Source: Candidatus Parcubacteria bacterium
GTDB taxonomy: Bacteria > Patescibacteriota > Patescibacteriia > CAIXNZ01
NCBI GenBank assembly: GCA_026395755.1
Contig: JAPLYC010000045.1
Location: forward strand, 1-43,912
Length of the DNA stretch: 43,912 nt
Reading direction: 5' to 3'
The stretch's first letter is position 1, and the number at the start of each line of letters is the position of its first letter. The notes beneath the pieces were generated by a model. The model made no database searches and was not told where the DNA came from. It saw only the letters and a list, made by a program, of their open reading frames with translations. Both the position numbers and the translations under genes were made by a program. This document shows, piece after piece, positions 1 to 19,606 of the stretch.

Positions 1-1303
1 TGACTGACTTTAAAAACATCTGAAATTCGTCAGTATTAGTCAAAATATTTTCCAGCTGCTTATTTTGCGCGTTGCTAAGTTTGGCCTTAACTTTTTGCAA
101 TAATGCCCGTTCTGTTTCTTTTTGCTTTTTATATTGATAAAGCTGTTTGATTAAATTAGGCAAAGAATCAAGCCTAAAATTGCGCAAAAGTGACAGCCAC
201 TGGTATTGTTGCTTTTCTTTTTGCGTTTTATCAGTTTTTAATTTAATTGTATCCAAAAGCTGCTTCTTGTCTTCCTCCGGTAAAACGTTATCTAAGCCGT
301 TTTGAAAATCATCAAAATTTAATCTGGAACCCATGATTTGCCGGATATAATCCTTGTTTATATAAATCCCTGCTTGCAGCTCTGCCAAGGGAACCATCTT
401 AACTTCAGCCGAGTTATATAAGAACCTACCCAAGGCCTGGCCATATTTAAAAATATAATAATAGGACAAAATAAATATAAATTGCAAAGCAAATAATCTA
501 TGCAAGTCAGCAAAAACAATTTCCCTAAAAAATATAGCTCCGATAACAAAATATGCCAGTACCAGGCAGGTAACAAATATTACTTTTTTTTGCAGCAAAG
601 TCCGCAGCGGCTGAAAAACCACAAAACCAAGTAAAAAGTAAACCCCAATAAATACCTGCCCCAAATAAGGTGATAAAACATCACTCAATCTGGTTCTTAA
701 AATTTGAAATAGTATTAAAATAAGCAAAAAGCTCAGGGTTAAGCTTAAATACTCTCTAAACTTCGTTTTATCAATCTTATTTTTGTTTTTAAAATTTCTA
801 TAATATTCTCTAAGTAATTGCGGATTTTTCAGATAACTGATCCCCAGCCGAATCGGATAAAGTAAAAATCTTATCAGCAAATAAATAAAAATCGGCAAAA
901 TGATATTGATTAACAGGGTCAATGAAGGCCAATATGGCAGTTGCCAATTGGAATAGAAGTCCAAAGGAATTAGAAATGCATACAAAGTAAAAAGTTTGGC
1001 ATCTCCGCCTGCCCAGAGCTTAAAATGCCACAAGGTGAAAGCAACAATAAAAGTCAACAAAGTATTTAACAATACAGACAAGAAATAACCAAATGGATAA
1101 TAACTAATATTAATTACCTCAGAATTACCTAAAATTGTAATTACCAGCGAAATTATGTAATAAATTAAACCCAAAATCAAACCAAGCTTAATCCATTTAT
1201 TGCGGATTTTGCCGGATTTAAAATCTTCGTAACAAATAATTATACCGATTATTAAGATAAGCACTATAAACAACCAATCTTCTAGCAATAATATATTATT
1301 CAT
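1..1303 (-). CDS. A24-family prepilin peptidase-like membrane protein (partial, 3' end outside window)
   Basis: Open minus-strand frame from ATG at 1303 to the window edge (missed by the ORF track because it has no stop): MNNILLLEDWLFIVLILIIGIIICYEDFKSGKIRNKW...WHFKLWAGGDAKLFTLYAF. Hydrophobic; DFKSGKIRNKW and GGDAK match the two Asp motifs of A24 (GxGD) peptidases. Confidence 0.75.
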   Translation of the reverse strand, partial: MNNILLLEDWLFIVLILIIGIIICYEDFKSGKIRNKWIKLGLILGLIYYIISLVITILGNSEVINISYYPFGYFLSVLLNTLLTFIVAFTLWHFKLWAGGDAKLFTLYAFLIPLDFYSNWQLPYWPSLTLLINIILPIFIYLLIRFLLYPIRLGISYLKNPQLLREYYRNFKNKNKIDKTKFREYLSLTLSFLLILILFQILRTRLSDVLSPYLGQVFIGVYFLLGFVVFQPLRTLLQKKVIFVTCLVLAYFVIGAIFFREIVFADLHRLFALQFIFILSYYYIFKYGQALGRFLYNSAEVKMVPLAELQAGIYINKDYIRQIMGSRLNFDDFQNGLDNVLPEEDKKQLLDTIKLKTDKTQKEKQQYQWLSLLRNFRLDSLPNLIKQLYQYKKQKETERALLQKVKAKLSNAQNKQLENILTNTDEFQMFLKSV

Positions 1304-1800
1304 AAAAATTAATTTTGTTATCTTCGCAATATTTATAAGCCATGAGTAAATAAGGTCTAACTCTGCTGATTTTAGGGACAACATTACTGGTTTTAAGTGC
1401 CATACCGTCACTAACCACAAAGGAATAATCAATACCGGCTATTTGGGGTAATTTTTTATGGATAAATTTAGTCAAATTTAATAAACCCTTATAATTTTTA
1501 CTAGTGATCACAATATTTATGCTGGTTTCTATCCCGGCAGTTATTAAATTTTCCAAACCTTTTAAAGTCTTTTGCCAACAGCCAGGTACCTGAGTAAGTT
1601 CATCGGATATTTCAGCGCTATAAAATAACAAAAGGATATAATGTCGGTTCTCCCCCTGAGAAAGTCACATTACTGTCCTGGCGTCTTAACTCAACAAGCT
1701 TATTTTTAATATCAGCTAAACTAAAAGCCGGCAATATTTCCTGATAATTGCAAAACAAACATCTTTGATTACATTTATCAGTTAGCCTAATAATCGCCAT
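1296..1800 (-). pseudogene. degraded radical SAM protein (internal deletion plus frameshift, truncated C-terminus)
   Basis: 1618-1800 encodes CNQRCLFC...GGEPTLYP then stops; 1296-1631 resumes in another frame at SAEISDELTQVPGCWQ. About 45 residues present in neighbouring paralogues are missing, and the C-terminal Cys cluster is absent. Confidence 0.75.
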
Positions 1801-1808
1801 AGTTTATT

Positions 1809-2867
1809 TTAGTTACCTTTTTTAATTTTTTGCAAAATTGGTTTAAATTCTTCCATGCCAAATTTATTTAAATATTGGCTCATAACACCGGCACAATTTT
1901 TTGTGTAAATACAAACTTGGCATTTATCTGGCTTTTTTCTTTGTTCAATCTCCTCGTTTTCATTTGTATGAAAATATTTCGGATAATTTGCCAAAAAACA
2001 TAGCGGAAAACCGCAAATCCCCTGGAAACCCATAAAATGTAGATCTTTACCTTGATATTTGTCCAATAATTCTATCAGCCTGGGGACAACTTCTGAATAT
2101 TTAATTAAACAATCATCTTTTCCCTTATCATTCATGCCGATAGCTGACAGATATAAACCCAAAGGACGGATAGAACCGAATTTTTGTTTGATAAATTTCA
2201 GATAATCCTCCAGAATATCAAAGTTATAATGGTTAATTACGCAGTTTAAGGCTATATAGTTCTGTCCCGTAGAAAAAACATTAAGCAAACCCTTAATAAC
2301 CAGATCGTAATTATCTTTAGTCCCAGTAATCAAATCATAAATATTTTCTTGATGAGAATGAAAAGAAACAAAATATTTAACTCTCTTTTCTTTGCTAAAG
2401 GGTTTAACATTTTCTTCCCTGGACAAAAGAACTGCGTTTGTTTGGACTGTAATTTCAGATTTTTTATCTTTAAGTATATATCTTATTAATTTAATGTAAT
2501 CAGGATGCAAAGTCGGTTCGCCTCCCGTTAAGATAAATTCTTTATTTTGAGCTGAATAACTGGTATTTATCTTGTCTATTATTTTTTTTAATTGCGCAAA
2601 ACTAAAAAAGTTTGAACCGGTATTATCAATCGGGCAAAAAATGCAATTCTGGTTGCAGCTACGGCTTATCCTTAAAAAAATTTTAATATAATCGGGATTT
2701 TTCGCGCTGATTTCCAAAAACTCCGGCAATCTTTTAATTCTTTTGAATTCCTCCGCAGACAAATTAATTATTTTGTCAATCAAAACCGCGCATCTTCCTG
2801 ATTGCCAGTCTTGCTTACTAATTTTCCCGATTAAATATTTAATGGCCAGAAAATATCTTGTTGTCAT
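1809..2867 (-). CDS. radical SAM protein with C-terminal CxxCx5C motif
   Basis: CNQNCIFC, GGEPTLHP, FPLCFL and CQVCIYTKNCAGVMSQYLNKFGMEEFKPI. Confidence 0.9.
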   Translation of the reverse strand: MTTRYFLAIKYLIGKISKQDWQSGRCAVLIDKIINLSAEEFKRIKRLPEFLEISAKNPDYIKIFLRISRSCNQNCIFCPIDNTGSNFFSFAQLKKIIDKINTSYSAQNKEFILTGGEPTLHPDYIKLIRYILKDKKSEITVQTNAVLLSREENVKPFSKEKRVKYFVSFHSHQENIYDLITGTKDNYDLVIKGLLNVFSTGQNYIALNCVINHYNFDILEDYLKFIKQKFGSIRPLGLYLSAIGMNDKGKDDCLIKYSEVVPRLIELLDKYQGKDLHFMGFQGICGFPLCFLANYPKYFHTNENEEIEQRKKPDKCQVCIYTKNCAGVMSQYLNKFGMEEFKPILQKIKKGN

Positions 2868-2897
2868 TTTATTTCGTTAATATGAATATCAAAATAC

Positions 2898-3797
2898 TTA
2901 TTCCTTAATAACCGGATTAAATTCATCCCAGCCGTATATTTCTGGGTATTCTTTCCAGGGGCCCTCACAGTCATTAAAAAATTTACATTTCTTACATTCT
3001 TCTCTTTTTACCTTGCCTCTGATAGTACGATATTCTTTATAATTTTTAAGCAGTCCGTCGCCGTCATAAATCTGTGTTTCCGGAATTTGTTTTTCAGCTA
3101 TGTAGTACCCATATCCTTGCATTAAACAATACGGGATAGCTTCAGTCATGACTCGTTTATTTGCCCTTATCCCAATATCTAATCCCCTTTTAACAAATGG
3201 CATCACATCAGTCTTCCGAGGCACAATCCATTCTTTATTTTTTGCGGCAGAGCCAATAATATGAACGTACGCAAACTGAAATTGATCCACGTTCAGCTCA
3301 ACCAGAAGATTAGCTATGCTTGGTAAATCTTGATAATTTTTTGTAGTAATAACTGTATTAGTCAGCACATGTGCTCCTAGTGATTTTAAATTTTTTATAC
3401 CGCTGACTACCTGCTGCCAAGATCCGGGGCTACAGGTTAATTGGTCATGAATTTCGGTAGTGGAACCGTGTAAAGCTGGCGAAAATTCATTGGCTCCGGC
3501 ATTTATGATTTTTTGGCAAAAATCCTTATAGGCAAACATTCGGCCATTACTTTGTATTTGGATGACTTTAAATCCTAAACTTTTAGCATACTCGACTGCC
3601 CTGATAAGCTCAGGATGAATTGTAGGTTCACCCCCTGTAAAAACAACCTCATCGCAGCTATCTTTCTTGGCACTGGCCAAAGCTTCTTTAATATCATCAA
3701 GGTCTCTGCCCTGATACTTAAAACGTTTATCGCCTTGGACGCAAAAAGCGCAACAATTATTGCAATTAAATATTATTTTTATATCGACTCGAGACAT
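2898..3797 (-). CDS. radical SAM protein with C-terminal CxxCx5C motif
   Basis: CNNCCAFC, GGEPTIHP, IPYCLM and CKKCKFFNDCEGPWKEYPEIYGWDEFNPV. Confidence 0.9.
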   Translation of the reverse strand: MSRVDIKIIFNCNNCCAFCVQGDKRFKYQGRDLDDIKEALASAKKDSCDEVVFTGGEPTIHPELIRAVEYAKSLGFKVIQIQSNGRMFAYKDFCQKIINAGANEFSPALHGSTTEIHDQLTCSPGSWQQVVSGIKNLKSLGAHVLTNTVITTKNYQDLPSIANLLVELNVDQFQFAYVHIIGSAAKNKEWIVPRKTDVMPFVKRGLDIGIRANKRVMTEAIPYCLMQGYGYYIAEKQIPETQIYDGDGLLKNYKEYRTIRGKVKREECKKCKFFNDCEGPWKEYPEIYGWDEFNPVIKE

Positions 3798-3804
3798 ATA
3801 GATT

Positions 3805-4752
3805 CTATTTTATATTGTGCTTATAATTTAAACTCCATGGCTTAATTAGTCTTACCAAATTATTATTTGAATCTATTTCGATCTTATCGCCATTTTCAAA
3901 TGTAAAAAGCGCATCCTCAACGCCGACCAGACAAGGGATCCTGAATTCACGGCAGATAACTGAGGCATGAGACAAAGCGCCCCCCATCTCAGTGATAATA
4001 CCCTTGGCTTTTAACATCGCCGGCAACAATGCCGTGTTTGTTGATTGCATAATAATTATTTCATAACTTTTTATATCAATTGGCAAGCCAATCTCATAAT
4101 TAAATAGTAACCTTGCCTGACCGTTGGCATTCAGCTCATTTACCGCCGAACCGGCCAAAACTTTTTTACATTTTTTATTTCTTTCTTGCTGTAGTTTATC
4201 CAATTCATTTAATATTTCTTTATTTTTCATATATAGTGCGTACAAGACTAACCTATCTCTTAATTTCAACAGGGTTTGATATTTATTATAGGCCTTACTT
4301 TCTCTAGCGTCTTCAAGATCATGTTTTAATTTTTTTGCGTGATAGAAGGGGGAAGTTTGCAGAAAGGAAGTATTTCCGTCCAAATTTACTTTTTCGCTCA
4401 GACTCAAAAATTCATAAAATTCCTTTTTGGATACGGCTTTCATTTCAATTTCTAAATATTTTTTCAAATACTCAACATACTCCTGCAAATATGCGGATCC
4501 TTTGGGTGGTAACACTTGCTGCCCCGTCTTCACTGGCCAAGGGATTCGGTAGTCTTTTATGATTATATGGGTTTCCGTAGAAGTATGCATTTCCTCCAAA
4601 TATTTTTTGTCAACAAATTTATCAATTATAATCCAATCGGCTGGCATAATACCCCATCCGGAAAACATAGCTAACATTTTAAGTATTTTATTTTTTAGTT
4701 CTGTTTCCGTTAAATACATTGCTAGATTAATTAGATTTAAATTTTTCTCCAA
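3805..4752 (-). CDS. PEP-utilising enzyme swivelling (phospho-His) domain protein
   Basis: C-terminal KGIITEMGGALSHASVICREFRIPCLVGVEDA...FENGDKIEID matches the PEP-utilising mobile domain; N-terminal ~200 aa unassigned; no ATP-grasp or PEP-binding TIM barrel recognised. Confidence 0.8.
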   Translation of the reverse strand: MEKNLNLINLAMYLTETELKNKILKMLAMFSGWGIMPADWIIIDKFVDKKYLEEMHTSTETHIIIKDYRIPWPVKTGQQVLPPKGSAYLQEYVEYLKKYLEIEMKAVSKKEFYEFLSLSEKVNLDGNTSFLQTSPFYHAKKLKHDLEDARESKAYNKYQTLLKLRDRLVLYALYMKNKEILNELDKLQQERNKKCKKVLAGSAVNELNANGQARLLFNYEIGLPIDIKSYEIIIMQSTNTALLPAMLKAKGIITEMGGALSHASVICREFRIPCLVGVEDALFTFENGDKIEIDSNNNLVRLIKPWSLNYKHNIK

Positions 4753-5494
4753 GCCTTTTTATATAATAAAAATACCAACGTTCAAAATCTTTATTAATAT
4801 TTTCATGACAAAAATCTAGAAATTGTTTAGCAATATCGTATGTTTCTCGGCACTTAAAATTGCAAAAATAATGCATGAACAAAGGCCAAATATTATTAAC
4901 CAACGGGCATTCATGGTTTTTGATTCGTTTATTATCCATCCAGCGCCGATCGATTGAGACCTCGTCGAATTTACCGTTCTTAAGAACATTTTTGTAATGG
5001 TTTTTTACGCAACATGCGGGATAGCCAAGATATAACCCCATTCCCAAACAAGCCTTGGGGTTTGTGGTATATGAATTCTCAAATTGAATGAACCTTTTTA
5101 TCTCTACTGTAGATGCCGCGGCGATAACTATATTATTTCTTTTCTTGAGCTTATGTCCATATACGCATTGTTTATTTTTATAATAGATAACTTCCGCACC
5201 GTTTATTTGTTTTGGAGGATGTTTTCGTGCATTATCTTTATATCTGACAACAACGACCTTCAATCCTAACTTATTATATTTATTAACTAAATACTTAGCC
5301 TGGGTCAAAGTTAATAACTCCTGTTTGATAACCTTTCTTTTAGTTTGGGTTAACAAAATATAATCAAGATTAAGATTTTTAAAAACTTTCTTAATTTTTT
5401 TAAAATCATACCCATTAATATTACCGTTGCAGATATCAAAATAATCGCAAGTCAGTTTCATTATCGGACAATATCTTGTATTTTTTATGGTCAT
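4727..5494 (-). CDS. GYPxCC-motif protein (DUF483-like?) of unknown function
   Basis: LGMGLYLGYPACCVKNHY motif; ATGA overlap with the upstream rSAM gene and 26-bp overlap with the downstream gene. Confidence 0.65.
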   Translation of the reverse strand: MTIKNTRYCPIMKLTCDYFDICNGNINGYDFKKIKKVFKNLNLDYILLTQTKRKVIKQELLTLTQAKYLVNKYNKLGLKVVVVRYKDNARKHPPKQINGAEVIYYKNKQCVYGHKLKKRNNIVIAAASTVEIKRFIQFENSYTTNPKACLGMGLYLGYPACCVKNHYKNVLKNGKFDEVSIDRRWMDNKRIKNHECPLVNNIWPLFMHYFCNFKCRETYDIAKQFLDFCHENINKDFERWYFYYIKRLGEKFKSN

Positions 5495-6420
5495 AATAAT
5501 TTGGAAGTTTTAAAAAAATCAGCCCAGCCGAAAACCTTTATATATCCTTTCCAGACACCTTCGCAACTATTATTATAATTACAAGCTTTACATTTTAAAT
5601 GCTTTGTCTTCAAGGAATTTTTCCTCAGCTTTTGCCAATTAAATCTTTGCCGAATACCTTGCGGATTATTATAACCAATCACATCGGTATTAAAATCATG
5701 ATATTCCCCAATGTATTTTAAGCTATTTTTGTGCATTAAACAAGGCGGTATGCCGTCAAAGGCCACATTATATCCCTGGCTATTAGCTGAGGCTATAATC
5801 TTATCAATTTGCGGTATAAAATCCTGGTATTTTAGATACAAATCCTTATATTTTTTTGCTCTGCCGCGTATCCACATAAAATTCAGCCGGAAATCCCTGA
5901 CGCTCATCTCATGATAATATGACAAGGTTTTTAATAAATCCAAATAATTTATTTTATTTATTACCAAATTAATGGAAACGGGATGCCTGATCAGCCCCTT
6001 ATTGTAGAAAAATATCAAATTTTTTATCCCCTGTATTTTTTCCCCAAATCCGCCTTTGACTTGAGTCAGCTCATCCTCGATATTTGACTTATGGCTATGG
6101 ATGGAAACAGAAAAACGGTTTGCGCCGGATTCAATTAATTTAGCCAGAAATTTTTTATCCTCAAACTTTCTACCGTTGCTGATGATATGGACAATTTTAA
6201 ATTTTAGTAATTTACATAAATGCAAAATTTTATAAATCTCCGGATGCAAGGTAAATTCCCCGCCTAAAAATCCAATGGATTCAAAACCCTGCTTTTTTGC
6301 CAAAATTATATCGAACTTAATTTTTTCAAAATCAACCATCCGGCGGGTATCGTGTTCCACCATGCAGAATTTGCAGCGATTATTGCAAACATCGCCAATA
6401 TTGATATCAATATTTTTCAT
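5491..6420 (-). CDS. radical SAM protein with C-terminal CxxCx5C motif
   Basis: MKNIDINIGDVCNNRCKFC, GGEFTLHP, IPPCLM, CKACNYNNSCEGVWKGYIKVFGWADF. Start set to ATG 6420 (ATGA overlap with upstream gene) rather than the track start 6468. Confidence 0.88.
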   Translation of the reverse strand: MKNIDINIGDVCNNRCKFCMVEHDTRRMVDFEKIKFDIILAKKQGFESIGFLGGEFTLHPEIYKILHLCKLLKFKIVHIISNGRKFEDKKFLAKLIESGANRFSVSIHSHKSNIEDELTQVKGGFGEKIQGIKNLIFFYNKGLIRHPVSINLVINKINYLDLLKTLSYYHEMSVRDFRLNFMWIRGRAKKYKDLYLKYQDFIPQIDKIIASANSQGYNVAFDGIPPCLMHKNSLKYIGEYHDFNTDVIGYNNPQGIRQRFNWQKLRKNSLKTKHLKCKACNYNNSCEGVWKGYIKVFGWADFFKTSKLL

Positions 6421-7286
6421 AATATTTCCCCGAATAAGCCTAAATACTCGGTATCTATCCCCGGGCAAATCATGTCCAAATTACATCCGCAGCATTTTTT
6501 AATTTTTCGCTTTAATCTGCCCGGCTTTTCTTTTTTCATATTATAATCATAAATATCCCTGTCCATAGTAAACAATTCATCGGCCAAATAATAATCATCA
6601 CCCAATAAGCAAAAAGGAACTTCAGCGAATCTAACTATCATTTTATTTTTATGTCCATACTCAATCACTTTTTTAATTACCGGCTTAATACTGCCAAAAC
6701 TCACTGCATATGGTTTATTATGATCTAAAATTTCCATGCTGGTAAAATTCACCTCCTTGATATTATTTTTATTGATAAACTTTATGATATTCAGTAAATC
6801 CTTATAATTATAAAGATTAATGACGCAATTAGCCTTTAATAAACGACCCTTAAAATATATCCCTACATTCTTTAAAGCCTTTACCAGATTAGCATACAAC
6901 TGTTTATTTTGGGACAACTTGGCAAATAACTTTTGATTGTGGCCGTAAATTGATATCACCAATTCATCAATTAAAGGCAGGGCTTTTTGAGCAATATTTT
7001 TATCTGCCAGATAAAAACCGTTTGTAGCCAGCGCCGTGGTAAAATTCAGTTTTTTTGCCGTCTGCAATATATCAACGAAATTATCTTCAATAAAAGGCTC
7101 TCCGCCTAAAAAATTAATATATTTGTAGCCTTTTTGTGCATAGAAGCTTAAAGTATTGAAAACATCCCGGCTATCCTTAAAAGCAGACAAATCCTTATGC
7201 TTCTGCCGGTTATCTTTCTGAATGCAAAATACACAGTCATTATTGCACTTATATGTAATAAATAATTCCAATTTGTTTTCTGGCAT
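6417..7286 (-). CDS. radical SAM protein with C-terminal Cys cluster
   Basis: CNNDCVFC, GGEPFIED, VPFCLL, CCGCNLDMICPGIDTEYLGLFGE. Confidence 0.9.
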   Translation of the reverse strand: MPENKLELFITYKCNNDCVFCIQKDNRQKHKDLSAFKDSRDVFNTLSFYAQKGYKYINFLGGEPFIEDNFVDILQTAKKLNFTTALATNGFYLADKNIAQKALPLIDELVISIYGHNQKLFAKLSQNKQLYANLVKALKNVGIYFKGRLLKANCVINLYNYKDLLNIIKFINKNNIKEVNFTSMEILDHNKPYAVSFGSIKPVIKKVIEYGHKNKMIVRFAEVPFCLLGDDYYLADELFTMDRDIYDYNMKKEKPGRLKRKIKKCCGCNLDMICPGIDTEYLGLFGEIL

Positions 7287-7296
7287 CTTAATTAAT

Positions 7297-8238
7297 TTAG
7301 GATTTTAAAATCTTGCTGATAATTATTTGCGGGTCAATTGTTTGCGGCTTTAATTCCGAAGCATCATAATATTTATCCGCGGCATACAAGCCGGCACAGA
7401 TATCTTTTAAACTGCAACTATTGCAAATTGGCACTTGGGGATATTTAAATTGATCGGAATTTTGCAGCATTTGTTTTCTTTTATCCAAAAAAATTATGAT
7501 TCTGCCTTCATCCTTCACCCTCTTTCTGGTTTCCGTTGAATATTCAGCAAAATCCAACATATAGCACAGAGGCACTCTTTCAACCCGAAAGGTTCTGCCT
7601 GCTAATTTTAATATTTTCAACGCCTTATTTAAACTCGCCTTGAAATCACTTAATTTAGGAATTACCTGGATATTTTCCGAAGCCCGATTCATAAACGGAT
7701 CCAAGTTATTAAAAACAAAATGTTTTATATAGGGGAAATTTCTTAAAATGAAAATAATATATCTGTCTAGATATTGAGCATTGTATTTACTAATAACACA
7801 ATTTATATTTACTTCAATATTATAATCGGCTAAATTCTTTAAAGCTTTAATTATATTAAGGTAAGATTTCGGATTTTGCGATAAATAATTTTGTATTTTG
7901 GGCTTATACGAATAAAATGATAAATGTAAGTGTTTCAGCCCTGTTTTTACCAAATCGCTCAGATACTTTTTGTCGGATAATTTCTGACCATTGGTAATAA
8001 TCCGGCAAGCTAAACCTTTTGACAAAGTGTATTTAATCAATGAAAATAATTGCGGATGTAAAGTCGGTTCACCTCCGGTAATAATAATCTCTCTTGTACC
8101 CCGCTCAATCAAATCATCAAGCTGTTTTTTAAATATTGCGACCGTCATTTCCTTAAAATTCTCCGGGTTGGAACAAAAAAGACAATTCTGATTGCATTTT
8201 CTGATAATCTGAATGTAATTTATTTTGGCCATAATCAA
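7297..8238 (-). CDS. radical SAM protein with C-terminal CxxCx5C motif
   Basis: CNQNCLFCSNPENF, GGEPTLHP, VPLCYM, CNSCSLKDICAG. Confidence 0.9.
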   Translation of the reverse strand: MIMAKINYIQIIRKCNQNCLFCSNPENFKEMTVAIFKKQLDDLIERGTREIIITGGEPTLHPQLFSLIKYTLSKGLACRIITNGQKLSDKKYLSDLVKTGLKHLHLSFYSYKPKIQNYLSQNPKSYLNIIKALKNLADYNIEVNINCVISKYNAQYLDRYIIFILRNFPYIKHFVFNNLDPFMNRASENIQVIPKLSDFKASLNKALKILKLAGRTFRVERVPLCYMLDFAEYSTETRKRVKDEGRIIIFLDKRKQMLQNSDQFKYPQVPICNSCSLKDICAGLYAADKYYDASELKPQTIDPQIIISKILKS

Positions 8239-8240
8239 AA

Positions 8241-9449
8241 TTACCTTATTGGCTTTAATATCTTAAATCCCTTGTTCCTTATTATATCGATATGAACACC
8301 AGCACAGTCATCAAAATGACTACATTGACGGCAATTTATACTTTTCAACTTATATAATTTTTCCTGATAAAAATTCATAATTTCCTCGATATTCCTACTT
8401 GGATATAAGTCATTCAATGATGAATTTCTTATTTTTTTATTGGCTATAGCTAGACAAACCGGAAGATCGTAAACAAATTGGTCATCTGGGCCTAATTGCT
8501 TAATCTTTTTTGATTTATCAGGAACCAAAACATATTCGTGCAGTTTTTGGCATAAATCATAAAAATTGCACAGTTTACAGCGTTGTTCTTCCTGCTTACA
8601 CGCAAAAGGCTTTTTATTATTTATCAAATCGTTGATCTGGCCAAGCCGCCCCCTGGCTTCGTCTATTATCTTCTTAGGATCCTGGATAAGGTCCTCATAA
8701 CCCTCTAAATATTCAGCCGGGAATCTGTTTAACCAGATAAAATAATCTTTATTTTCCCGATAAAAGTCCAGTACTGCTTTAATATATTTAAAATCCTCAT
8801 TCAAATCGAAAAATATTTCGTCTTTATTGTCATAAGCGCTGCCAAATGGCACGGGATATAGTAAATCATATTCATACACACCGTATTTTTCACTGTAATA
8901 CTTAATGGTATCGAGTAATCCTGTGACATTTTGTTTATTTATTACGATGTCAATGTTAATAATCGATGGAACTTTCAATAATCTAGAAATTTTAATAATA
9001 TTGGCCAGACCTTGCTGCGCTTGTTGTCCGGCACCCTTTTTGCCGTATAATTTATCTTGAATATCAAAACGATGCGAATGCAACGATAAAGTAAACTCAT
9101 CAACCCCCAATTTAATACAATTTGTGGTAAATTTAGTATCAGCAAACATTCTTCCGTTGCTGATTATCTGGACTTTTTCGAAATTATACTTTCCAATTAA
9201 TTTTAAAATGGCAAACAAGTCAGGATGTACTGTCGGATCGCCGCCGCTTATCACTATTTTATTATAATTGCCCTTCTGTGCCAAAGCCAAATTCCGGTCT
9301 ATTTCATCAAGCCCAAGATGATAGTTCTTACGATTTTCCTTATCAAGACAAAACAAGCAATTGTTGTTGCATTGCTTGGTTATACTAAGCCAGTATATTT
9401 TGTATTTATCAATCGCGGCTTTTTTTACGAACAAACGTTCATCTTTCAT
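8241..9449 (-). CDS. radical SAM protein with two C-terminal CxxCx5C motifs
   Basis: CNNNCLFC, GGDPTVHP, CKLCNFYDLC and CRQCSHFDDCAG. Confidence 0.9.
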   Translation of the reverse strand: MKDERLFVKKAAIDKYKIYWLSITKQCNNNCLFCLDKENRKNYHLGLDEIDRNLALAQKGNYNKIVISGGDPTVHPDLFAILKLIGKYNFEKVQIISNGRMFADTKFTTNCIKLGVDEFTLSLHSHRFDIQDKLYGKKGAGQQAQQGLANIIKISRLLKVPSIINIDIVINKQNVTGLLDTIKYYSEKYGVYEYDLLYPVPFGSAYDNKDEIFFDLNEDFKYIKAVLDFYRENKDYFIWLNRFPAEYLEGYEDLIQDPKKIIDEARGRLGQINDLINNKKPFACKQEEQRCKLCNFYDLCQKLHEYVLVPDKSKKIKQLGPDDQFVYDLPVCLAIANKKIRNSSLNDLYPSRNIEEIMNFYQEKLYKLKSINCRQCSHFDDCAGVHIDIIRNKGFKILKPIR

Positions 9450-9458
9450 ATATTAATA

Positions 9459-10376
9459 CTATTTAATATCGGCAGCAGTTAACTTTTTAAATTCAGAATC
9501 CCCAAATATTTTCAAGTAAGCTTTGATAACACCATTACATTGCTTCCTGGCCAGATAGCCGCATTTATTGCACAAATTAATTTTCTGTTTGCACATTATC
9601 GGCGAATATTGCTCCTTAGTTACACAGCCGTGTTTGCCGATATTGAACTCATTATTAGTCGCGCATTTGGCCAGGCGCCTGGTTTTCAATACCGGAAATT
9701 TCCTTAAAAGGCAGGGCGGGATATCAAAAGCCTGAAACTTCATCTGATCATGGTTTTTAAGTATTTCCTCAAGGATCGGAATCGACTCTGAAAAGCGCAC
9801 ATTGTAATTTTTATTAAGTGAATCAATATAAATAAAAATTACTCTTTTTATGCCTAATCGGTCAAGTTTTGCTATTGTTTTTCCTAAATCCTTAATATTC
9901 AGCTTGCTTACAACTATATTTACAAAAAAAAGAAAATTCAGCTTCAATAGCAGCGCCAAAGCAGAATAAACCTTGGGTAAATTTTTAGATTTGGTAATTC
10001 TATTATATACAGACTCAGTTGCTGAAGGTAAGGAAATGAATATTTTTAAATATTTATTATAGGGCAGCAGTTTAGCTAAATATGAGGCGTTTAGCAGTAC
10101 TCCATTTGTATGAAAGCTGATATAATCTATCCCGTTATTTACCGCGTAATCAATAATTTTAAATATATCACGGTTTAAAGTGGGTTCAAATCCGGTCAGG
10201 CACATCTCATTGGTATATTTGCTGAAAATTCTAATGTATTTCATGATCAGCTTAGTATCAGTCAAAATTATGGATTGAAAAAGCTTATCCTTATCAGGCT
10301 CATGGTTAAGGCAGTACAGACATTTATTCTGACATTTATCACTGCAAACAAACACTATATTTTTCTTAATTATCAT
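9459..10376 (-). CDS. radical SAM protein with C-terminal Cys cluster
   Basis: CQNKCLYC, TGFEPTLN, IPPCLL, CNKCGYLARKQCNGVIKAYLKIFG; ATGA overlap with upstream gene. Confidence 0.87.
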   Translation of the reverse strand: MIIKKNIVFVCSDKCQNKCLYCLNHEPDKDKLFQSIILTDTKLIMKYIRIFSKYTNEMCLTGFEPTLNRDIFKIIDYAVNNGIDYISFHTNGVLLNASYLAKLLPYNKYLKIFISLPSATESVYNRITKSKNLPKVYSALALLLKLNFLFFVNIVVSKLNIKDLGKTIAKLDRLGIKRVIFIYIDSLNKNYNVRFSESIPILEEILKNHDQMKFQAFDIPPCLLRKFPVLKTRRLAKCATNNEFNIGKHGCVTKEQYSPIMCKQKINLCNKCGYLARKQCNGVIKAYLKIFGDSEFKKLTAADIK

Positions 10377-11434
10377 ATATATTTTTTGACTAAATTTATA
10401 ATTTGCTTTTCCATGAAGGCGGCATTGGCAAATAATTCTGCGGAAAATTTTCCGCTACTCAAATCAAAGCCGTAACATATCTTATGGCAAGAGCGGTCTT
10501 CATCACACTGGCCGCAAACAAACTTGTTAACCGCCACATTAATAATACCTTTTTCGCACATTTTAAAATCCAAAAGCTTTTTTATCAATACCTTATTTAC
10601 TTTGCCGCTTAAAATATTGGCAATAATATATTTTTTCTTTAATGCCGGCGGTAACCCCACGAAAAATTCACAGGGGTAAATATCGCCATCTGGGTCGATT
10701 GATAACTCATCCATAATAATAGAACAACTTTTATTCTTTTTCTCCATAACACGGCGCACATCATCGATTAATTTAAAACTAATTTTCGCTCCCTTGGCCT
10801 TCAAATATTTAATTAATTTTAAAACTTTTGATAGGTTATTCAAATATTGATCAACTTTATTTTTTTCCCAATAAAAGCCCATGGCCGGCTGAACATTTAT
10901 ATTCCTAAAACCCAAGCTGACCAATTGCTTATAACAATAAAAAAAACTATCTGCATATTCCGGCATAATAGTCATCTTTATATTTATAAAGTCTTTATAT
11001 TTTAAGAGTAATGGTAATTTCTTATTTAAAGCTTCAGTTTTCCTGAACTTATAATCCTTAGCAAAGGAATCGATACTGACGCAAAAAAAAGGAAAATTTT
11101 CAACCAAAAATCTTAATTTTTCTTCAGTCAGCAAGCTACCGTTAGTAGTCAAACCTAAATATATTTTTTTCTTATATTTTTTTCTAAGCTGCTTAACCTT
11201 TTTTGCTATTTTTACCAGCAAATCATACCTCAAAAGGGGTTCGCCGCCAAAAAAATGAATAGACCTATCCTTACAGTGATTATATTTAAAAAACAATTCC
11301 AGTATTTTATCCAACGTTTTAACATCAAATTCCTTTTGCGCCTTTTTTGAAACATTACAATACTGACATTTAAAATTACATCTAAAAGTCAGAGGGATTA
11401 CTAATCTCTGAATATTTTCCAGTAATTCCTTCAT
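10373..11434 (-). CDS. radical SAM/SPASM-like protein
   Basis: CNFKCQYC, GGEPLLRYD, SIDPDGDIYPCEFF and CGQCDEDRSCHKICYG. Confidence 0.88.
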   Translation of the reverse strand: MKELLENIQRLVIPLTFRCNFKCQYCNVSKKAQKEFDVKTLDKILELFFKYNHCKDRSIHFFGGEPLLRYDLLVKIAKKVKQLRKKYKKKIYLGLTTNGSLLTEEKLRFLVENFPFFCVSIDSFAKDYKFRKTEALNKKLPLLLKYKDFINIKMTIMPEYADSFFYCYKQLVSLGFRNINVQPAMGFYWEKNKVDQYLNNLSKVLKLIKYLKAKGAKISFKLIDDVRRVMEKKNKSCSIIMDELSIDPDGDIYPCEFFVGLPPALKKKYIIANILSGKVNKVLIKKLLDFKMCEKGIINVAVNKFVCGQCDEDRSCHKICYGFDLSSGKFSAELFANAAFMEKQIINLVKKYI

Positions 11435-11461: not shown

Positions 11462-12379
11462 TTAGTATTTTTTTTCGGCAATTATTTTCTTCAGCTCTGC
11501 CAAGGAATAATTTTTTTCCGATTGGGCAAAATCCATGCAACGGAAATAAAACAATCGTTCCATCAGATCTTTTTCCGGATTAAATATTTTGCAATATTCA
11601 ACCGTTAATTTATCTTCCACTGTCATATAATATATAGCAGTTTCTTTGTGGAATAAATCACAGATATAATCCTCATAGACACCATATGCTTCGGCAATTA
11701 ACTCCTTGTTAAATACTTCATTTGTATGCTGACAATCTTCAAAATCCGGATTAACAAAACTTATATATTGACAAGCTGCAATTTTCAATAAATCACCATA
11801 AGCGTTATCTTCCATCATAAATTTTTTATCCAAACATGATTTGCCGAAGCTCATAGTGCAGGTTGGATATTCCGGCCCGGGGCACAGGTCAACATTATTT
11901 TCCCTGATAGCCTTGGCCGTTTTCCTGGCGTTTTCAGTAGTAATTGCATTTAAATTTTCCTCATTGCCGTTTTTTAAATACTGAAAAGCATTATATTGAT
12001 TCTTGCAAGATTCAGATATGGCTAAATTTGGAAAAGGCTTATTGGGATCTTGGACGGGATTATCTTCAAAGGGTAACAAGTTTTTATTATTATCGCAAAC
12101 GGCTGCATCATTTAATCCAATATTCTTATACAATTCAGTCTGATATTCCCAGGAGACCCTCGGCTCATAAAAATCCAAAATGTTATTCAAATCCCATTCG
12201 GGAATTTCAAAAGTAATCGGCTGTTTTTCTGGTGGTAAAGTAAGATTACCATTTATATTTACATTGGGCTGGGGCTGTAATCTGCTGGAAATAAAAAAAT
12301 TATAAGCCAAAATAGCTACAATGGCTAACAATACTAATAATATCACTATAACTATAATAAAAATAATTTTATTTTTCAT
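11462..12379 (-). CDS. membrane-anchored Cys-rich protein of unknown function
   Basis: N-terminal TM anchor MKNKIIFIIVIVILLVLLAIVAILAYNFF, then a Cys-rich predicted extracytoplasmic domain. Confidence 0.75.
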   Translation of the reverse strand: MKNKIIFIIVIVILLVLLAIVAILAYNFFISSRLQPQPNVNINGNLTLPPEKQPITFEIPEWDLNNILDFYEPRVSWEYQTELYKNIGLNDAAVCDNNKNLLPFEDNPVQDPNKPFPNLAISESCKNQYNAFQYLKNGNEENLNAITTENARKTAKAIRENNVDLCPGPEYPTCTMSFGKSCLDKKFMMEDNAYGDLLKIAACQYISFVNPDFEDCQHTNEVFNKELIAEAYGVYEDYICDLFHKETAIYYMTVEDKLTVEYCKIFNPEKDLMERLFYFRCMDFAQSEKNYSLAELKKIIAEKKY

Positions 12380-12396: not shown

Positions 12397-12842
12397 TTAT
12401 GATGCTGAACAGCAGCTATTTCCATGATGACCGTGAGAGCCATGAGACCCATGACTGCCATGTGAGCCATGTGAGCCATGACTACCATGGGAACAATGTG
12501 ATCCCTGAGTGCCTTCATTGTGAATAAAATTATTATGGCCAAAATGGCGAGAACCGCTACGGACTAAATCATAGGCATGACCGCCTTTACCACCGCTATC
12601 AGTCGCTCCTGCGGGATTCTCACCATGCAGGCAGGGAGGAGCTGCCGCATTAGCTTCTTCCGCCAAAATACCCAAAGCAGTCACGCCTATTCCCAGCATA
12701 ATAATATCCTTCTTGGTTATTTTACCTTCCTCGTCATTAAGAAATTCCTGAAATTTCTTCTTTAATTGTGGCTTATTTTACCTTCCTCGTCATTAAGAAA
12801 TTCCTGAAATTTCTTCTTTAATTGTGGCAATCTGTTTTTCAT
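12397..12842 (-). CDS. His-Xaa-Ser (H-G-S) repeat precursor peptide, HxsA-like, frame disrupted by 56-bp duplication
   Basis: ORF 12397-12699 encodes ...GSHCSHGSHGSHGSHGSHGSHGSHGHHGNSCCSAS. Removing one copy of the 56-bp duplication joins it to ATG 12842: MKNRLPQLKKKFQEFLNDEEGKITKKDIIMLGIGVTALGILAEEANAAAPPC... Confidence 0.8.
12717..12828. repeat. perfect 56-bp tandem duplication (2 copies)
   Basis: ttattttaccttcctcgtcattaagaaattcctgaaatttcttctttaattgtggc at 12717-12772 and 12773-12828. Confidence 0.97.
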
Positions 12843-12866: not shown

Positions 12867-14354
12867 TTATTTGGCAACCTTTACCGGCGGCTTGGCTCGT
12901 TTGGCCCAATCCAAGAAAATATCCCTGTTTTTTTTGTTGTGCAATTTAGTAAATAAATAATCGATAATCTGCTCATCAATTTGCCATTTGTAATTATTGG
13001 CCATTTGCGGAAATATGTTGCCGTGTAAAGAATAATTATAAACGGGACAAGTGCCCCAATACGGCTGGTAAACATTATCGCCGTGTCCGGCCAAGCCGTT
13101 TGTGCAGGAAGCCAGACAAATTGATTTGCACAAATTATTATTAATTAGCTGTTCAAAGGTATTGCTATTGACATTGCCTAATTTAAACATCTCGTCGCCC
13201 ATGCGAGAAATCATCCTGCCGTCATCACAAGTATAAATATCGCCGTTATAATTATAAGCCAATTGCCCGATAGCCGCCCCACAGGGTGAACGCATGTCCA
13301 AATTATGAGGTTCTTCCTGCAATAAAATTTTTCTCAGATAAGTTACGGCGGCAGTCTCCAGAAAAAGCTTACCCTGATAATTTTTTCCCAAAATATAATC
13401 CAGTGTCTTTTTATAAAAATCTATGTATTCTTCCGGCGTATACCAGATTTTTTCCTTGGCATTTACGGCAAAACCGTAAGGATTTAGATAGCGCAGATAA
13501 ATCGATCTCAGCCCCAAATCAATGTAAGTATCAATCACTTTCTTGTAATTGGCTAGGGTTTTACGGGTAACAGTAATTAAAGCTCCGACATTATAGTAAT
13601 TCTTCTTTTTGCCTTTATACTTTTGCGCATAAATTTCCTTGATTTTTTTAATCCATTTTACTGTTTCCGCGAAACTATTGCCGTCTGCATAGATGCGATT
13701 AAAATTATGAGTTTCCTCATCGCCGTCCAATGAAGTGCAAAAATGTACCCCCTTTTCCATAAGAAAATTAATTTTTTCGTCATCCAATAAACTAAAATTT
13801 GAAACCAATCTGAACTGCAAATTCTTTTTTTCCAGCCTATTTTTTTCACCGGCATACTGAATAATAAATTTAACCACCGGCCAGTTCAATAGCGGCTCCC
13901 CGCCCTGAAACTCAATAGCAATAGCATCATTGGTAGTTTTAAAGATCATGTCCACAATCTTTTTTGCCGTAGCCAAATCCATGTCTAAATTTTTATCTTT
14001 GCTATCTCCGGCACTGGCATGGCAATAAATACATTTATGATTGCAACGCAAGGTAACCACGATAATATGCAAAGACGGCCCGAATTTCAAAAAACTGTTT
14101 CTTTCTCTATATTTTTCAACCAATGTAGGCACATAAGCCTCATCTTTAATAAATAGATTAGCCTTTAACTCTTTATAAATTTTATTTTTGGAGCTCAGCT
14201 TACCGGTAATAAATGCTTTAAAATCATTCTCCTTAAGAAAAACATACTGCCCCACCTCATTGGTCAATAGATAATTATCAGCATCAAATTTCTTAAAGCG
14301 AAAATATCCGACTGACTTGGCGTCTAGTTTGTTTATTGTTTGTAGATCCAGCAT
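12867..14354 (-). CDS. hxsB: His-Xaa-Ser system radical SAM maturase HxsB-like
   Basis: VGYFRFKKFDADNYLLTNEVGQYVFL N-terminus; CNHKCIYC; GGEPLLNW; CGAAIGQLAYNYNGDIYTCDDGRMISRMGD...YQPYWGTCPVYNY, resembling the HxsB family as I know it. Confidence 0.82.
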   Translation of the reverse strand: MLDLQTINKLDAKSVGYFRFKKFDADNYLLTNEVGQYVFLKENDFKAFITGKLSSKNKIYKELKANLFIKDEAYVPTLVEKYRERNSFLKFGPSLHIIVVTLRCNHKCIYCHASAGDSKDKNLDMDLATAKKIVDMIFKTTNDAIAIEFQGGEPLLNWPVVKFIIQYAGEKNRLEKKNLQFRLVSNFSLLDDEKINFLMEKGVHFCTSLDGDEETHNFNRIYADGNSFAETVKWIKKIKEIYAQKYKGKKKNYYNVGALITVTRKTLANYKKVIDTYIDLGLRSIYLRYLNPYGFAVNAKEKIWYTPEEYIDFYKKTLDYILGKNYQGKLFLETAAVTYLRKILLQEEPHNLDMRSPCGAAIGQLAYNYNGDIYTCDDGRMISRMGDEMFKLGNVNSNTFEQLINNNLCKSICLASCTNGLAGHGDNVYQPYWGTCPVYNYSLHGNIFPQMANNYKWQIDEQIIDYLFTKLHNKKNRDIFLDWAKRAKPPVKVAK

Positions 14355-14885: not shown

Positions 14886-15086
14886 TTAGCTCATTAACCC
14901 CAAAACATAATTAGCAAACTCATTTTTAATTACTGCCTGAACATCCTGATCGATTTTATCAATACTCACTTCCAGATAATTACCGACCATTTTTACTTTA
15001 AAATTAGCCAAATTTTTATACTCTTTAATGGCTTCTTCAATGACTTTTAAATTGTAAATATTCTTATTAAACTTAATAATTTCCAT
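14886..15086 (-). CDS. small protein, possible HxsD-like partner
   Basis: 66 aa MEIIKFNKNIYNLKVIEEAIKEYKNLANFKVKMVGNYLEVSIDK...IKNEFANYVLGLM; layout echoes the HxsD N-terminus (iY...i..A) and EF.N segment. Confidence 0.5.
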   Translation of the reverse strand: MEIIKFNKNIYNLKVIEEAIKEYKNLANFKVKMVGNYLEVSIDKIDQDVQAVIKNEFANYVLGLMS

Positions 15087-15093
15087 ATAATAT

Positions 15094-15573
15094 TTATTTT
15101 CCCTTCTTCCCTTTTCCCCTTTTAGCTCCTCTAGCTCTTTTACCCTTATCAGATTCCTTTTGATCTTCCCAGGGCTTACTTATCCCCAAAGGATCCTCCT
15201 GCCAATCTTCCTCCTCAACTTCTTTTAATAACTCATCAACTTCATTGGGTACGGCATTATAAAGCGCCTGAGATACAATATATTCCCTAATTTTTGCATT
15301 AGTCAGACTCACTTTTTCCCTTAATAGCTGATTTAAAAGCTCATTATAAAATTCTCCTGCAATTTTCTCTAAACCTCCTGCGTCTTCTTTAGACTTCATA
15401 ATTACTTTAATTTCCTTTTTCGGATCCCCATCCAAAAAAACATAAACTTTATCCAGAAAGAAATAAGCGGCCTGATATATAGCTGCCACTGAATATATTT
15501 TGGTATTTATGGTAAATTTTATTTCACCTTCTTTTTCTTTAATTTCCTGCCTAATACCTGGTTTATTTTTCAT
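15094..15573 (-). CDS. hxsD: His-Xaa-Ser system protein HxsD-like
   Basis: INTKIYSVAAIYQAAYFFLDKVYVFLDG...GEFYNELLNQLLREKVSLTNAKIREYIVSQAL; the ELLNQLLRE segment matches the LLNDYxLRE signature of HxsD. Confidence 0.72.
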   Translation of the reverse strand: MKNKPGIRQEIKEKEGEIKFTINTKIYSVAAIYQAAYFFLDKVYVFLDGDPKKEIKVIMKSKEDAGGLEKIAGEFYNELLNQLLREKVSLTNAKIREYIVSQALYNAVPNEVDELLKEVEEEDWQEDPLGISKPWEDQKESDKGKRARGAKRGKGKKGK

Positions 15574-15617: not shown

Positions 15618-17888
15618 TTACTTACACGAACCATCTATACATTTCTTGCCGGAAGCGGCGCATTCGCTATCAAGAGAGCAGGGCGCTAAATCATTATAGC
15701 GGCAACAGACCATTTCTTGCTTGCCATTTTTGCTGGCATTAAAATCAAAGACATAATAACCCGGCTGGCAACAAGCTCGTCTGGCGCAAGTATTGCTCGC
15801 GGAAGTATCCTTACAGACATCCGAAGCGCCTCCTACTCCCGGTACTACACCGCCGCAAGTATCAGCAGGATCATCTTCAGCTCCAGCAGACTTAGGCGCG
15901 GTAGTAGCTGTAAAATTAGCAAAATTTAATTTTCCGGTGGTTTCATCCAACTTTTTTACATAACAAAAATTCTTTTTTATTGTACTACCACCAGAAGAAA
16001 CAGAATAAGTAATGGCCTGCGCAGTGGTAACTAAGCTTGATTGCAGATCTTCATTATTACAATATAGATTACAAGTTTCAGCACTATCCCAAGTTATGGT
16101 TGGCTCCTCCTCAACTATAGTTCGATTATTTCCGGGGCATTTCTTAACCAAGACCTTGCCTGGTAAAGCTAAGGTGGTAAAACTGCAATTTGCAGCCAAT
16201 TCATTAATATTGCTATCAGACAAGGCAGTATTATAAACTCTAAATTCATCAAAAGTCCCCCAGGAAGACTTCCCATCTTCATAATTACCAATATGAATAA
16301 CATTATTTCCCGACTTATACGCCGCTACGCAGGTTTTTCCGCCTATTGCCGAAGTTCCGTCAATATAAAATTCTGTTTTTCCGTTTCTACCGATGGCTAC
16401 CAGATGATGCCAAGTATTTGGCGGAAAAAGAGTTGTATTACTCAGATTAAGTCCATCCATTGCGGGGGTACTTGGAATAGTGTCACAGGGAAACCAGGTT
16501 TTGTCAAAATTATGTCCGGGATTTTCAATCGTACCCAGGAAAAACCCGAACGGATTATTATACCTTCTAGTGGCGATAACCATATCAGCGGAACCTCTAA
16601 CTAAAATATTATAACCATTGGTTGGAGGATTGAGCGGAGTTTTAAACCAAGTTTCAATGGTCCATTCATATAAAGGTATAGACCGGGTCAGACTTATCAC
16701 TTGAGTACCGGAAGTCTTAATACCATTGTTAATCCGGCCGCTGACATGCATAGGTGAAGTTGTAGTATTATCTTTTAAAATGCCGCTTGGACCGAAAAGC
16801 GAACTCTCAGAAATAGTATTACCGGCTACTTCATCAAAATTATAGCTCACCGCCAAATCAACGCTATTTGTAGCAGTCCCCAAAATATCGTCAAAGATAG
16901 CAGAATTGCTGGGGTCATCGGTTACCAGTCCGCCATAAGTAATATAGATATCCAGTCCGCCATAAGTAATATAGATATCCTTCGTTCCGTTCGCTGGTAT
17001 AGAAAAATCTATTGTCTCCCCAGCAGGATTAAGAATTGTTGCTGGTATTTTTACCCAGACCTTGGGCATGACATCAATAAAAAAATCAAGTTCTTGGGTT
17101 GGGGTTAACGCAGCATCGGCATAGAAATGCAAATCCCAGCCGTCAGCACACGTCTTATCACCGGCTAATAAATCAGCGGGAAAATTATTAATAGCCACCT
17201 GATAATCGGTTAAAGCCTGGCCGGTATTATTTTTAATGGTAATTTTTCTTTGATAGCGCGGCCGGATATTGGAAATCAATTTTAAAACGGTTCCACTGCT
17301 GATATTAATATACTGGCTACCACCCTGAAAAAGCTTTATTTCATTAGCTGAAACAATAGGCGCATAAATTGATTGAATCGGCGGAATGGCCTGAGTTAAA
17401 GTCAAACTGCCGTAATTTCGTTCCTGATTCAATAATAAATCGGATTTTATAGTAATATTATTAGCCTCCAAAGATAAATTGGCATAGCCCGGCTTGGGAT
17501 AAATTCCAAAATCATTGCCGCTATTGATGGCGACTGACTTGGTCTTAAAAACATAAGCGTTACCTATTTTCTGAATCTGGCGAGTACCGGTACAAGAATC
17601 ATCATTCGGATTGAGAATCGTGCAGAACCTAGCTTCAGGATTGAGAAAAATCAAATTATTGGTCACAGCTAAAAATTTGGAAGTAGGATTGGAAGTACTA
17701 ATAGGCCCCTCGGTAACTAAGCTGCTATTCAAAGCATTGCCGACCATGATATAATCCCCTCCGCTTTTTAAAACCGAGTCAATCATAAAATAGTTATTCA
17801 AAGACTCATAATTAAAGCCTGCCCAGGCAATACTGCTTAAGGCAAAAAAAGCCGCAATAATCAGACAAATTTTAGATGCCAAATTCAT
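15618..17888 (-). CDS. secreted protein with DUF2341-like and LamG/concanavalin-like domains
   Basis: Signal peptide; YQRKITIKNNTGQALTDYQVAI (DUF2341-like); YEWTIETWFKTP...TWHHLVAIGRNGKTEFYIDG...HIGNYEDGKSSWGTFDEFRVYNTALS (LamG). Confidence 0.8.
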   Translation of the reverse strand: MNLASKICLIIAAFFALSSIAWAGFNYESLNNYFMIDSVLKSGGDYIMVGNALNSSLVTEGPISTSNPTSKFLAVTNNLIFLNPEARFCTILNPNDDSCTGTRQIQKIGNAYVFKTKSVAINSGNDFGIYPKPGYANLSLEANNITIKSDLLLNQERNYGSLTLTQAIPPIQSIYAPIVSANEIKLFQGGSQYINISSGTVLKLISNIRPRYQRKITIKNNTGQALTDYQVAINNFPADLLAGDKTCADGWDLHFYADAALTPTQELDFFIDVMPKVWVKIPATILNPAGETIDFSIPANGTKDIYITYGGLDIYITYGGLVTDDPSNSAIFDDILGTATNSVDLAVSYNFDEVAGNTISESSLFGPSGILKDNTTTSPMHVSGRINNGIKTSGTQVISLTRSIPLYEWTIETWFKTPLNPPTNGYNILVRGSADMVIATRRYNNPFGFFLGTIENPGHNFDKTWFPCDTIPSTPAMDGLNLSNTTLFPPNTWHHLVAIGRNGKTEFYIDGTSAIGGKTCVAAYKSGNNVIHIGNYEDGKSSWGTFDEFRVYNTALSDSNINELAANCSFTTLALPGKVLVKKCPGNNRTIVEEEPTITWDSAETCNLYCNNEDLQSSLVTTAQAITYSVSSGGSTIKKNFCYVKKLDETTGKLNFANFTATTAPKSAGAEDDPADTCGGVVPGVGGASDVCKDTSASNTCARRACCQPGYYVFDFNASKNGKQEMVCCRYNDLAPCSLDSECAASGKKCIDGSCK
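16925..16978. repeat. 27-bp perfect in-frame tandem duplication
   Basis: ccagtccgccataagtaatatagatat twice; duplicates DIYITYGGL in the encoded protein. Confidence 0.95.
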
Positions 17889-17897
17889 AATTGATAA

Positions 17898-18743
17898 TTA
17901 AAAACTAACATTCAGATGACAACACAATTTCGCGCCATTATTAATGGAAACAATGTCATTACCGGTTGTATTGGTATAAGTAGCACCAGCGGCCGCTACA
18001 CTAAATATCCATCTGTCGTTTTTCTCACTGCCTTTAGCTGTTTTACAGCTATTTGCCAAGCCAGCCTTCCAGCATAACCATTGATTATTTATATTCTTAT
18101 CCGAACCCAAATTAATATCTTTAAATATCAGTTTTTGGGCACTGATAAGTAACTCGTTTTTAGATAAGGGATATAAAGTTTTTAAATAAACATTGCCGGA
18201 CTTAAGCTCTTTTTCTCCTTTTTCTCCGCAAGTGCCGCTGCCATCATTGGAAAAACAGCCAGTTACCGTGGTGTTATCTTCTGCTATCCTATCTGTTATC
18301 CTAATAGGATACTTGGTCTGCACATTCTTCCCCTCTGCCGGTATAAAATTAATGGTACCATTTGGCGCTGACAATTTATTAGCCGTGAGCTGATAACGGT
18401 CGCTTTTTACTTCCAGACTGTTAGGTGTCCAAATCAGCATTTTTGAATTGCAATCTTTATTTAAAGGCGTATTAGCGCTCCGAATATCTTCACAAAAATA
18501 TAATTTGTTATTTTCATCCAATAACAAATAATTGCCGATCAGCACATCTCCGAGTTTGCCGGTCGCTGGACTCACTGTATTTTCCACTGCCAGATAGCCG
18601 TTAATATGTAAATTATCCAGAATATATAAATTATTATTTTTTCCCAAAAAGTAGCCGTTACCTGCGGCAAAAACAAATCTGGTTACCATTAAGATAACCC
18701 CGAGACTGCATAAAAAAATAATTATTTTATAAATTTTTGGCAT
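17898..18743 (-). CDS. secreted/surface protein of unknown function
   Basis: Signal peptide-like N-terminus (IIIFLCSLGVILMVTRFVFAAGNGYFLGKN), Asn/Gly-rich extracellular composition. Confidence 0.65.
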   Translation of the reverse strand: MPKIYKIIIFLCSLGVILMVTRFVFAAGNGYFLGKNNNLYILDNLHINGYLAVENTVSPATGKLGDVLIGNYLLLDENNKLYFCEDIRSANTPLNKDCNSKMLIWTPNSLEVKSDRYQLTANKLSAPNGTINFIPAEGKNVQTKYPIRITDRIAEDNTTVTGCFSNDGSGTCGEKGEKELKSGNVYLKTLYPLSKNELLISAQKLIFKDINLGSDKNINNQWLCWKAGLANSCKTAKGSEKNDRWIFSVAAAGATYTNTTGNDIVSINNGAKLCCHLNVSF

Positions 18744-18749
18744 AATTTA

Positions 18750-19472: not shown

Positions 19473-19606
19473 AAAATCTTATATTGTCATTCAAGGCTAA
19501 GCCTTGAATATATTCCCAAAATTTTATACCTGATAGAATGTTGCTAAAGGCTTAGCCTTTAATCCCTATCAACCCTCTCCCATAACTATTTTACCGCCAT
19601 ACAACC

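Follow-up and report, generated by a model that had tools for sequence, protein, structure and literature searches.

An expanded set of HxsC-like radical SAM enzymes in a patescibacterial His-Xaa-Ser system

The window, a stretch of 43,912 nucleotides, spans the entire contig JAPLYC010000045.1 of a Candidatus Parcubacteria bacterium (assembly GCA_026395755.1; genome size 1.46 Mb) and carries an array of seven related genes for radical S-adenosylmethionine (rSAM) proteins. The question is whether these genes are recent duplicates of each other, enzymes with a substrate each, or parts of one pathway. We consider it likely that all seven are HxsC-type rSAM maturases of a patescibacterial His-Xaa-Ser (Hxs) system, in which HxsC has expanded into an ancient and probably non-interchangeable set. 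For a system that modifies peptides, seven such enzymes are unusually many. Genomes, records and families are denoted by G, L and f labels; the window genome is G000.

All seven open reading frames (ORFs) are located on the minus strand and match PF04055 with E-values of 7e-15 to 3e-24: copies A (1809-2867), B (2898-3797), C (5491-6420), D (6417-7286), E (7297-8238), F (8241-9449) and G (9459-10376). For copy C, the probable start is the ATG at 6420, not the TTG at 6468. Each protein shows a CxxxCxxC motif, a P-x-C-[LFY]-[LMA] string and a C-terminal C-x2-C...C-x-G. This is in good agreement with the initial annotation, which had proposed seven related rSAM ORFs with a shared C-terminal module, but some of its details need correction. 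The spacing of the C-terminal motif is not x5 or x6 throughout: the module consists of PxC plus CX2CX5CxG in six copies, and copy G carries CX2CX7CxG. In addition, the PxC string occurs in all seven, but copy F lacks a cysteine at the position that PxC takes in the others. A Y-x3-[FY]-G, said to follow often, is present in five of the seven copies (not in E and F). The motif pair appears with a frequency of at most 5e-5 in shuffled versions of each of the seven proteins and in none of 13 other rSAM proteins read from the window genome. A broken eighth copy (1296-1803, minus strand), frameshifted and shortened, directly precedes a gene for an A24 prepilin-type peptidase; in G303, an intact short rSAM protein of 243 aa takes the same place.

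To which rSAM family do the copies belong? Copies A, B, C, E and F have HxsC4 or HxsC as their top-ranking NCBIfam family. For copy D, a viperin-like family ranks first and HxsC4 second, and for copy G, MoaA ranks first and HxsC4 third. In a tree of 75 rows, the seven copies and HxsC occupy one side (branch support 90/97), while HxsB, MoaA, the SPASM protein encoded at 10373 and eight other rSAM proteins of the window genome occupy the other. In this tree, the copies group with HxsC and not with unrelated rSAM families, on a branch just short of the strict threshold for support. A clade of the patescibacterial copies excluding canonical HxsC is not rejected (p 0.083). The rows were chosen for the C-terminal motif, and G002, G303 and G279 encode short paralogues (226-251 aa) that lack it; we therefore draw no conclusion from the tree on how general the motif is.

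The initial annotation had missed the genomic context. Upstream of the array and on the same strand follow an HxsA-like precursor with an (SHG)n core and a broken leader frame (12397-12842), recognized by the leader and core common to HxsA of relatives, the rSAM/SPASM maturase HxsB (12867-14354; TIGR03978, 515.7 bits, cut-off 370), an HxsD-like protein (14886-15086; NF038315, 74.9 bits, cut-off 41) and HxsD (15094-15573; TIGR03976, 61.1 bits, cut-off 50). Because the operon encodes all of these, we describe the locus as a patescibacterial Hxs system whose HxsC set has expanded. Despite an estimated contamination of 6.6%, the region belongs to the window genome, since the genes at 15618-20140, just upstream of the Hxs system, keep their order in the sister genomes G002, G006, G007 and G008, and ribosomal proteins S9 and S4 as well as RpoA are encoded on the same contig. 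The whole cluster with the same parts is also found in another class (G700).

This context bears on the idea that the copies synthesize a small-molecule cofactor rather than mature a peptide, with HxsA as a metal-binding carrier. MoaA profiles match the copies significantly, too, the closest single solved structure is the small-molecule enzyme BlsE, and a His- and Cys-rich HxsA could bind metal. Given that the copies group with HxsC apart from MoaA and are linked to HxsB and HxsD, we regard such a role as improbable.

Among 381 genomes of the class, HxsB scores above its cut-off in nine, a B-type HxsC occurs in nine, and eight have both (Fisher p 8e-15, without correction for relatedness). The odd ones are located at contig ends: G007 retains only the start of HxsB, and the contig of G008 stops after HxsA and one further rSAM gene. 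A phylum sample of 380 genomes adds only G700 and G633. The system is patchy, as neither G001, of the same genus, nor G003 has an HxsB over the cut-off or an array.

How old is the set? The initial annotation had assumed repeated tandem duplication, and the adjacent genes on one strand, together with the broken copy, would indeed suit recent duplication in this lineage with largely redundant products. The tree, however, refutes this for copies B to F. It assigns orthologous clades to copy B (13 rows, support 98/99), E (8 rows, 100/100), F (8-9 rows), D (6 rows, 100/94) and C (4 rows, 100/100), with bootstrap support of 97-100. All five copies have orthologues in other genera; the clades of B, D, E and F extend to another family (G279, G303 or G331), and those of copy B and others reach the records L021-L025. 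The window copies share only 21-34% identity with copy B, and forcing the seven into a clade of their own is 765 log-likelihood units worse (approximately unbiased test, p 1.8e-47), by which recent tandem duplication is rejected. The only sister pair consists of copies A and G, which share 29% identity. All rSAM copies compared in the orthologue groups are intact, and in five groups dN (0.13-0.57) is well below dS, which exceeds 1.2 or is saturated, so that their ratio is a rough one. We conclude that the copies arose by old duplications and have been maintained as a set; a recent and redundant array is highly improbable.

Do the C-terminal cysteines form a functional unit? In 23 aligned members, C12, C16 and C19 of the radical cluster as well as P222, C268, C271, C277 and G279 are invariant (copy B numbering). 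C224, the cysteine of PxC, occurs in every member outside the F clade, displaced by one residue in two of them, and in these members PxC and CX2CX5C co-occur. Members of the F clade have PAxxL or similar at the PxC site. They carry a cysteine just before the first CX2CX5C and then a second cysteine with CX2CX5CxG, eight cysteines altogether. This paired loss and gain is what co-ligation would predict, and it fits the earlier suggestion that four C-terminal cysteines may hold one auxiliary cluster. In the fold model of copy B (predicted local distance difference test, pLDDT, 95.6; predicted template modelling score 0.92), residues 240-250 form a beta-hairpin and residues 253-261 a helix, both of them between PxC and CX2CX5C. 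Among the solved structures closest to this model are those of the peptide maturases SkfB and SuiB. In the model of copy F, residues 258-402 stay under pLDDT 50; as this C-terminal part failed, the idea of two clusters in copy F is derived from its sequence. A profile of the C-terminal part searched against the PDB gave one weak match, SuiB (E 0.31), which is suggestive but not evidence.

The term Twitch-like, used for this module in the initial annotation, turned out to be imprecise. By definition (PMC5715301), the Twitch domain is a shortened SPASM domain from which CX2CX5CX3C is missing while the other half is retained. The copies show the reverse: the CX2CX5C part is present (CX2CX7C in copy G), and CX9-15GX4C is absent. 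Neither CX9-15GX4C nor CX2CX5CX3C occurs in any of the seven, and the full SPASM pattern is thus missing as well. Judged by its cysteine arrangement, the C-terminal part may represent a minimal module for an auxiliary cluster, distinct in sequence from both full SPASM and Twitch.

What would the enzymes act on? The HxsA leader in relatives reads K-K-x-[IF]-x-x-F-L-[NTS]-[DS]-E-E-[GA]-x-[IV]-[NT]-K-K and is followed by a hydrophobic stretch and a variable part. Across 13 leaders compared, six residues never vary (F15, L16, E19, E20, K25 and K26), and 12 of the 13 have Gly at position 21. The core in family f1 is close to HNNF[VI]HN..GSHCSHGSHGSHG, and (SHG)n repeats occur in HxsA of the window and its relatives. 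A search with the leader found a single HxsA in each scoring f1 genome, namely G000 (as two broken pieces), G002, G004, G005 and G006; one more was found by inspection in G008, and G700, G331 and L022 have two each. One relative of HxsA in L022 (3135-4802) has 555 aa; its approximately 50 SH-x repeats precede a large C-terminal domain of no assigned kind. HxsC-like enzymes (E <=1e-45) number seven in G000, six in G004, five in each of G002, G005, G007 and G331, three in G279 and G633, and eight in each of G700 and G303, the hits in G303 including a short paralogue without the C-terminal part; contig ends keep the counts for G006 (one) and G008 (none) low. In every genome that allows both counts, the enzymes (3-8 per genome) outnumber the HxsA precursors found (1-2), which favours several steps on one protein. 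The earlier proposal that each copy acts on a different residue or substrate is narrowed by this result, separate substrates being less likely than different steps on one substrate.

The opposite division of labour, in which HxsA is served by HxsB and one copy only and every HxsC-like enzyme has a substrate of its own, among the operon proteins or elsewhere, deserves consideration. Other exported proteins are encoded in the clusters (laminin-G type, at 15618, 17898 and 18750) and recur with the system in f1, and copies A and G as well as several copies of G303 and G331 are lineage-specific. However, unlike HxsA, HxsB, HxsD and the array, these exported proteins were not seen in the clusters of f75 and G700, and the shared leader was found on HxsA only. 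We therefore judge individual substrates to be unlikely, and consider that the seven enzymes probably remodel one small His-Gly-Ser repeat protein jointly.

A plausible route for leader removal is offered by the A24 peptidase (2-1303, minus strand), an extended version which follows the array, runs off the contig and matches PF01478 with 32.3 bits (cut-off 26.5). An array-linked A24 peptidase recurs in ten genomes, the window genome and G002, G004, G006, G007, G279, G303, G331, G633 and G700; four of these proteins are below the Pfam cut-off and were tied to the others by direct comparison. G008 has a further A24 peptidase on a different contig. Most of these genomes encode an ordinary A24 peptidase of 248-294 aa elsewhere. 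One A24 peptidase is found in G001, G003, G014 and G021 each, and G010 has two, so that a second copy is not unique to genomes with Hxs. In the literature searched, we found nothing relevant on prepilin peptidases in rSAM peptide systems.

From these parts, the following sequence of events can be proposed for the HxsC-type set. Each enzyme would reduce SAM at its CxxxCxxC cluster to a 5'-deoxyadenosyl radical, which would abstract hydrogen at a particular site of the HxsA core (HNNFxHNxGxxGSHCSHGSHG...). A putative C-terminal [4Fe-4S] cluster, for which the PxC cysteine and CX2CX5C would be the ligands, may serve in electron uptake or peptide anchoring. HxsB and HxsD would provide a common step and leader binding, whereupon the HxsC-like enzymes would add successive modifications. 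Finally, the modified HxsA would be exported and lose its leader, for which the linked A24 peptidase, cutting after E-E-G, is a plausible candidate. In its strictest form, this amounts to an assembly line of five to eight specialised HxsC-type enzymes acting in turn on one prepilin-like precursor with His-Gly-Ser repeats, which has an A24 peptidase of its own and yields a modified tail on the surface of the patescibacterial cell, an idea which we put forward tentatively and do not hold to be the likeliest outcome. No report on the chemistry or function of Hxs systems (HxsA-D) was found in the open literature searched.

Several observations weigh against an Hxs system of this kind. None of the copies comes near the cut-offs for HxsC and HxsC4: the best TIGR03977 score is 117.3 bits (copy E, cut-off 267.9), for which reason we file them as HxsC-like and not as HxsC, and NF038332 (HxsC4) reaches 167.1 bits with copy B and 143.3 bits with copy C (cut-off 500). 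The branch that joins the copies with HxsC is just under the strict threshold. A tandem duplication of 56 bp (12828-12773, and again 12772-12717) throws the HxsA leader of the window out of frame, which may mean that the Hxs system is inactive here or that the assembly is wrong at the repeat. The number of precursors comes from a search with the known HxsA leader, precursors with other leaders are possible, and G005, G006 and G008 are cut by contig ends. Finally, the operon encodes other proteins, any of which could be the substrate instead.

The remaining genes of the region complete the picture; those at 11462-12379, 10373-11434, 4727-5494 and 3805-4752 are on the minus strand. Between HxsA and the array lies a membrane-anchored protein without family match (11462-12379), followed by the rSAM enzyme at 10373-11434 mentioned above, which has the full SPASM cysteine pattern (CX9-15GX4C and CX2CX5CX3C), falls on the HxsB side of the tree and is not counted among the seven. 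Within the array, a protein with a PEP-utiliser phosphohistidine mobile domain (3805-4752; PF00391, 69.4 bits) stands beside copy B, as do its homologues in G004 and G007. Copy B itself varies in architecture, and its fused or neighbouring domains are in part of phosphotransfer type, like the one just named: its orthologue in L021 (4527-6353) is fused behind a second rSAM domain in a single reading frame of 608 aa, that of G002 (L055, 5814-7604) has an APH-like kinase part (22.1 bits, just under the cut-off), and that of G004 (L056, 2888-4690) has an extension of no identified family. The Cys-containing protein at 4727-5494 resembles DUF483 weakly (PF04467, 14.9 bits, below the cut-off of 25). 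It shares a G-Y-P-x-C-C motif with a protein inside the cluster of L024 (10885-11856), which scores just above that cut-off (26.9). Upstream of hxsD, three exported proteins, one with a laminin-G-type domain, are encoded at 15618-19472 and recur in family f1 only. YcaO cyclodehydratase genes lie within the Hxs clusters of L023 (12129-13922; PF02624, 150.5 bits) and G279 (L066, 3988-5790).

From a biological point of view, the locus is of interest because nature provides orthologous enzymes that are conserved across genera and families, together with no more than one or two candidate substrates, such that steps could be assigned by omitting single enzymes. This would show how much of a genome as small as about one megabase is devoted to modifying a single protein.

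A comparison with known systems places the locus between several of them. HxsA resembles Flp-type prepilins in its Lys-rich F-L-x-[DS]-E-E-G, the hydrophobic stretch thereafter and the A24 peptidase beside the array, and differs from them in that Lys replaces the Glu at +5; no Flp pilin match was found for four HxsA proteins in Pfam (E up to 1). The array-linked A24 peptidases differ from other A24 prepilin peptidases mostly by a long C-terminal extension. With respect to the SPASM/Twitch enzymes (AnSME, PqqE, SuiB, SkfB), the CX2CX5C of the copies resembles the second SPASM half, and their profile aligns to SuiB as far as its KCLSCGLLKICEG, but the copies lack CX9-15GX4C and the CX3C continuation. 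The repeat region of HxsA4 (NF038313) matches the HxsA found here, with 29.4 bits against a cut-off of 55, and copies A, B and C match HxsC4 better than any other NCBIfam family, likewise at a low score. A further close counterpart is canonical HxsC (TIGR03977; five proteins, from Aeromonas, Methylobacter, Nostoc, Mesorhizobium and Adhaeribacter plasmids). Like the copies, it combines an rSAM core with an xC[LIH] and CX2CX5C C-terminus, is linked to HxsB and HxsD and falls on the same side of the tree (branch support 90/97). It is longer (379-401 aa), and the five canonical Hxs loci read have one hxsC per cluster, compared to three to eight HxsC-like enzymes in the patescibacterial genomes.

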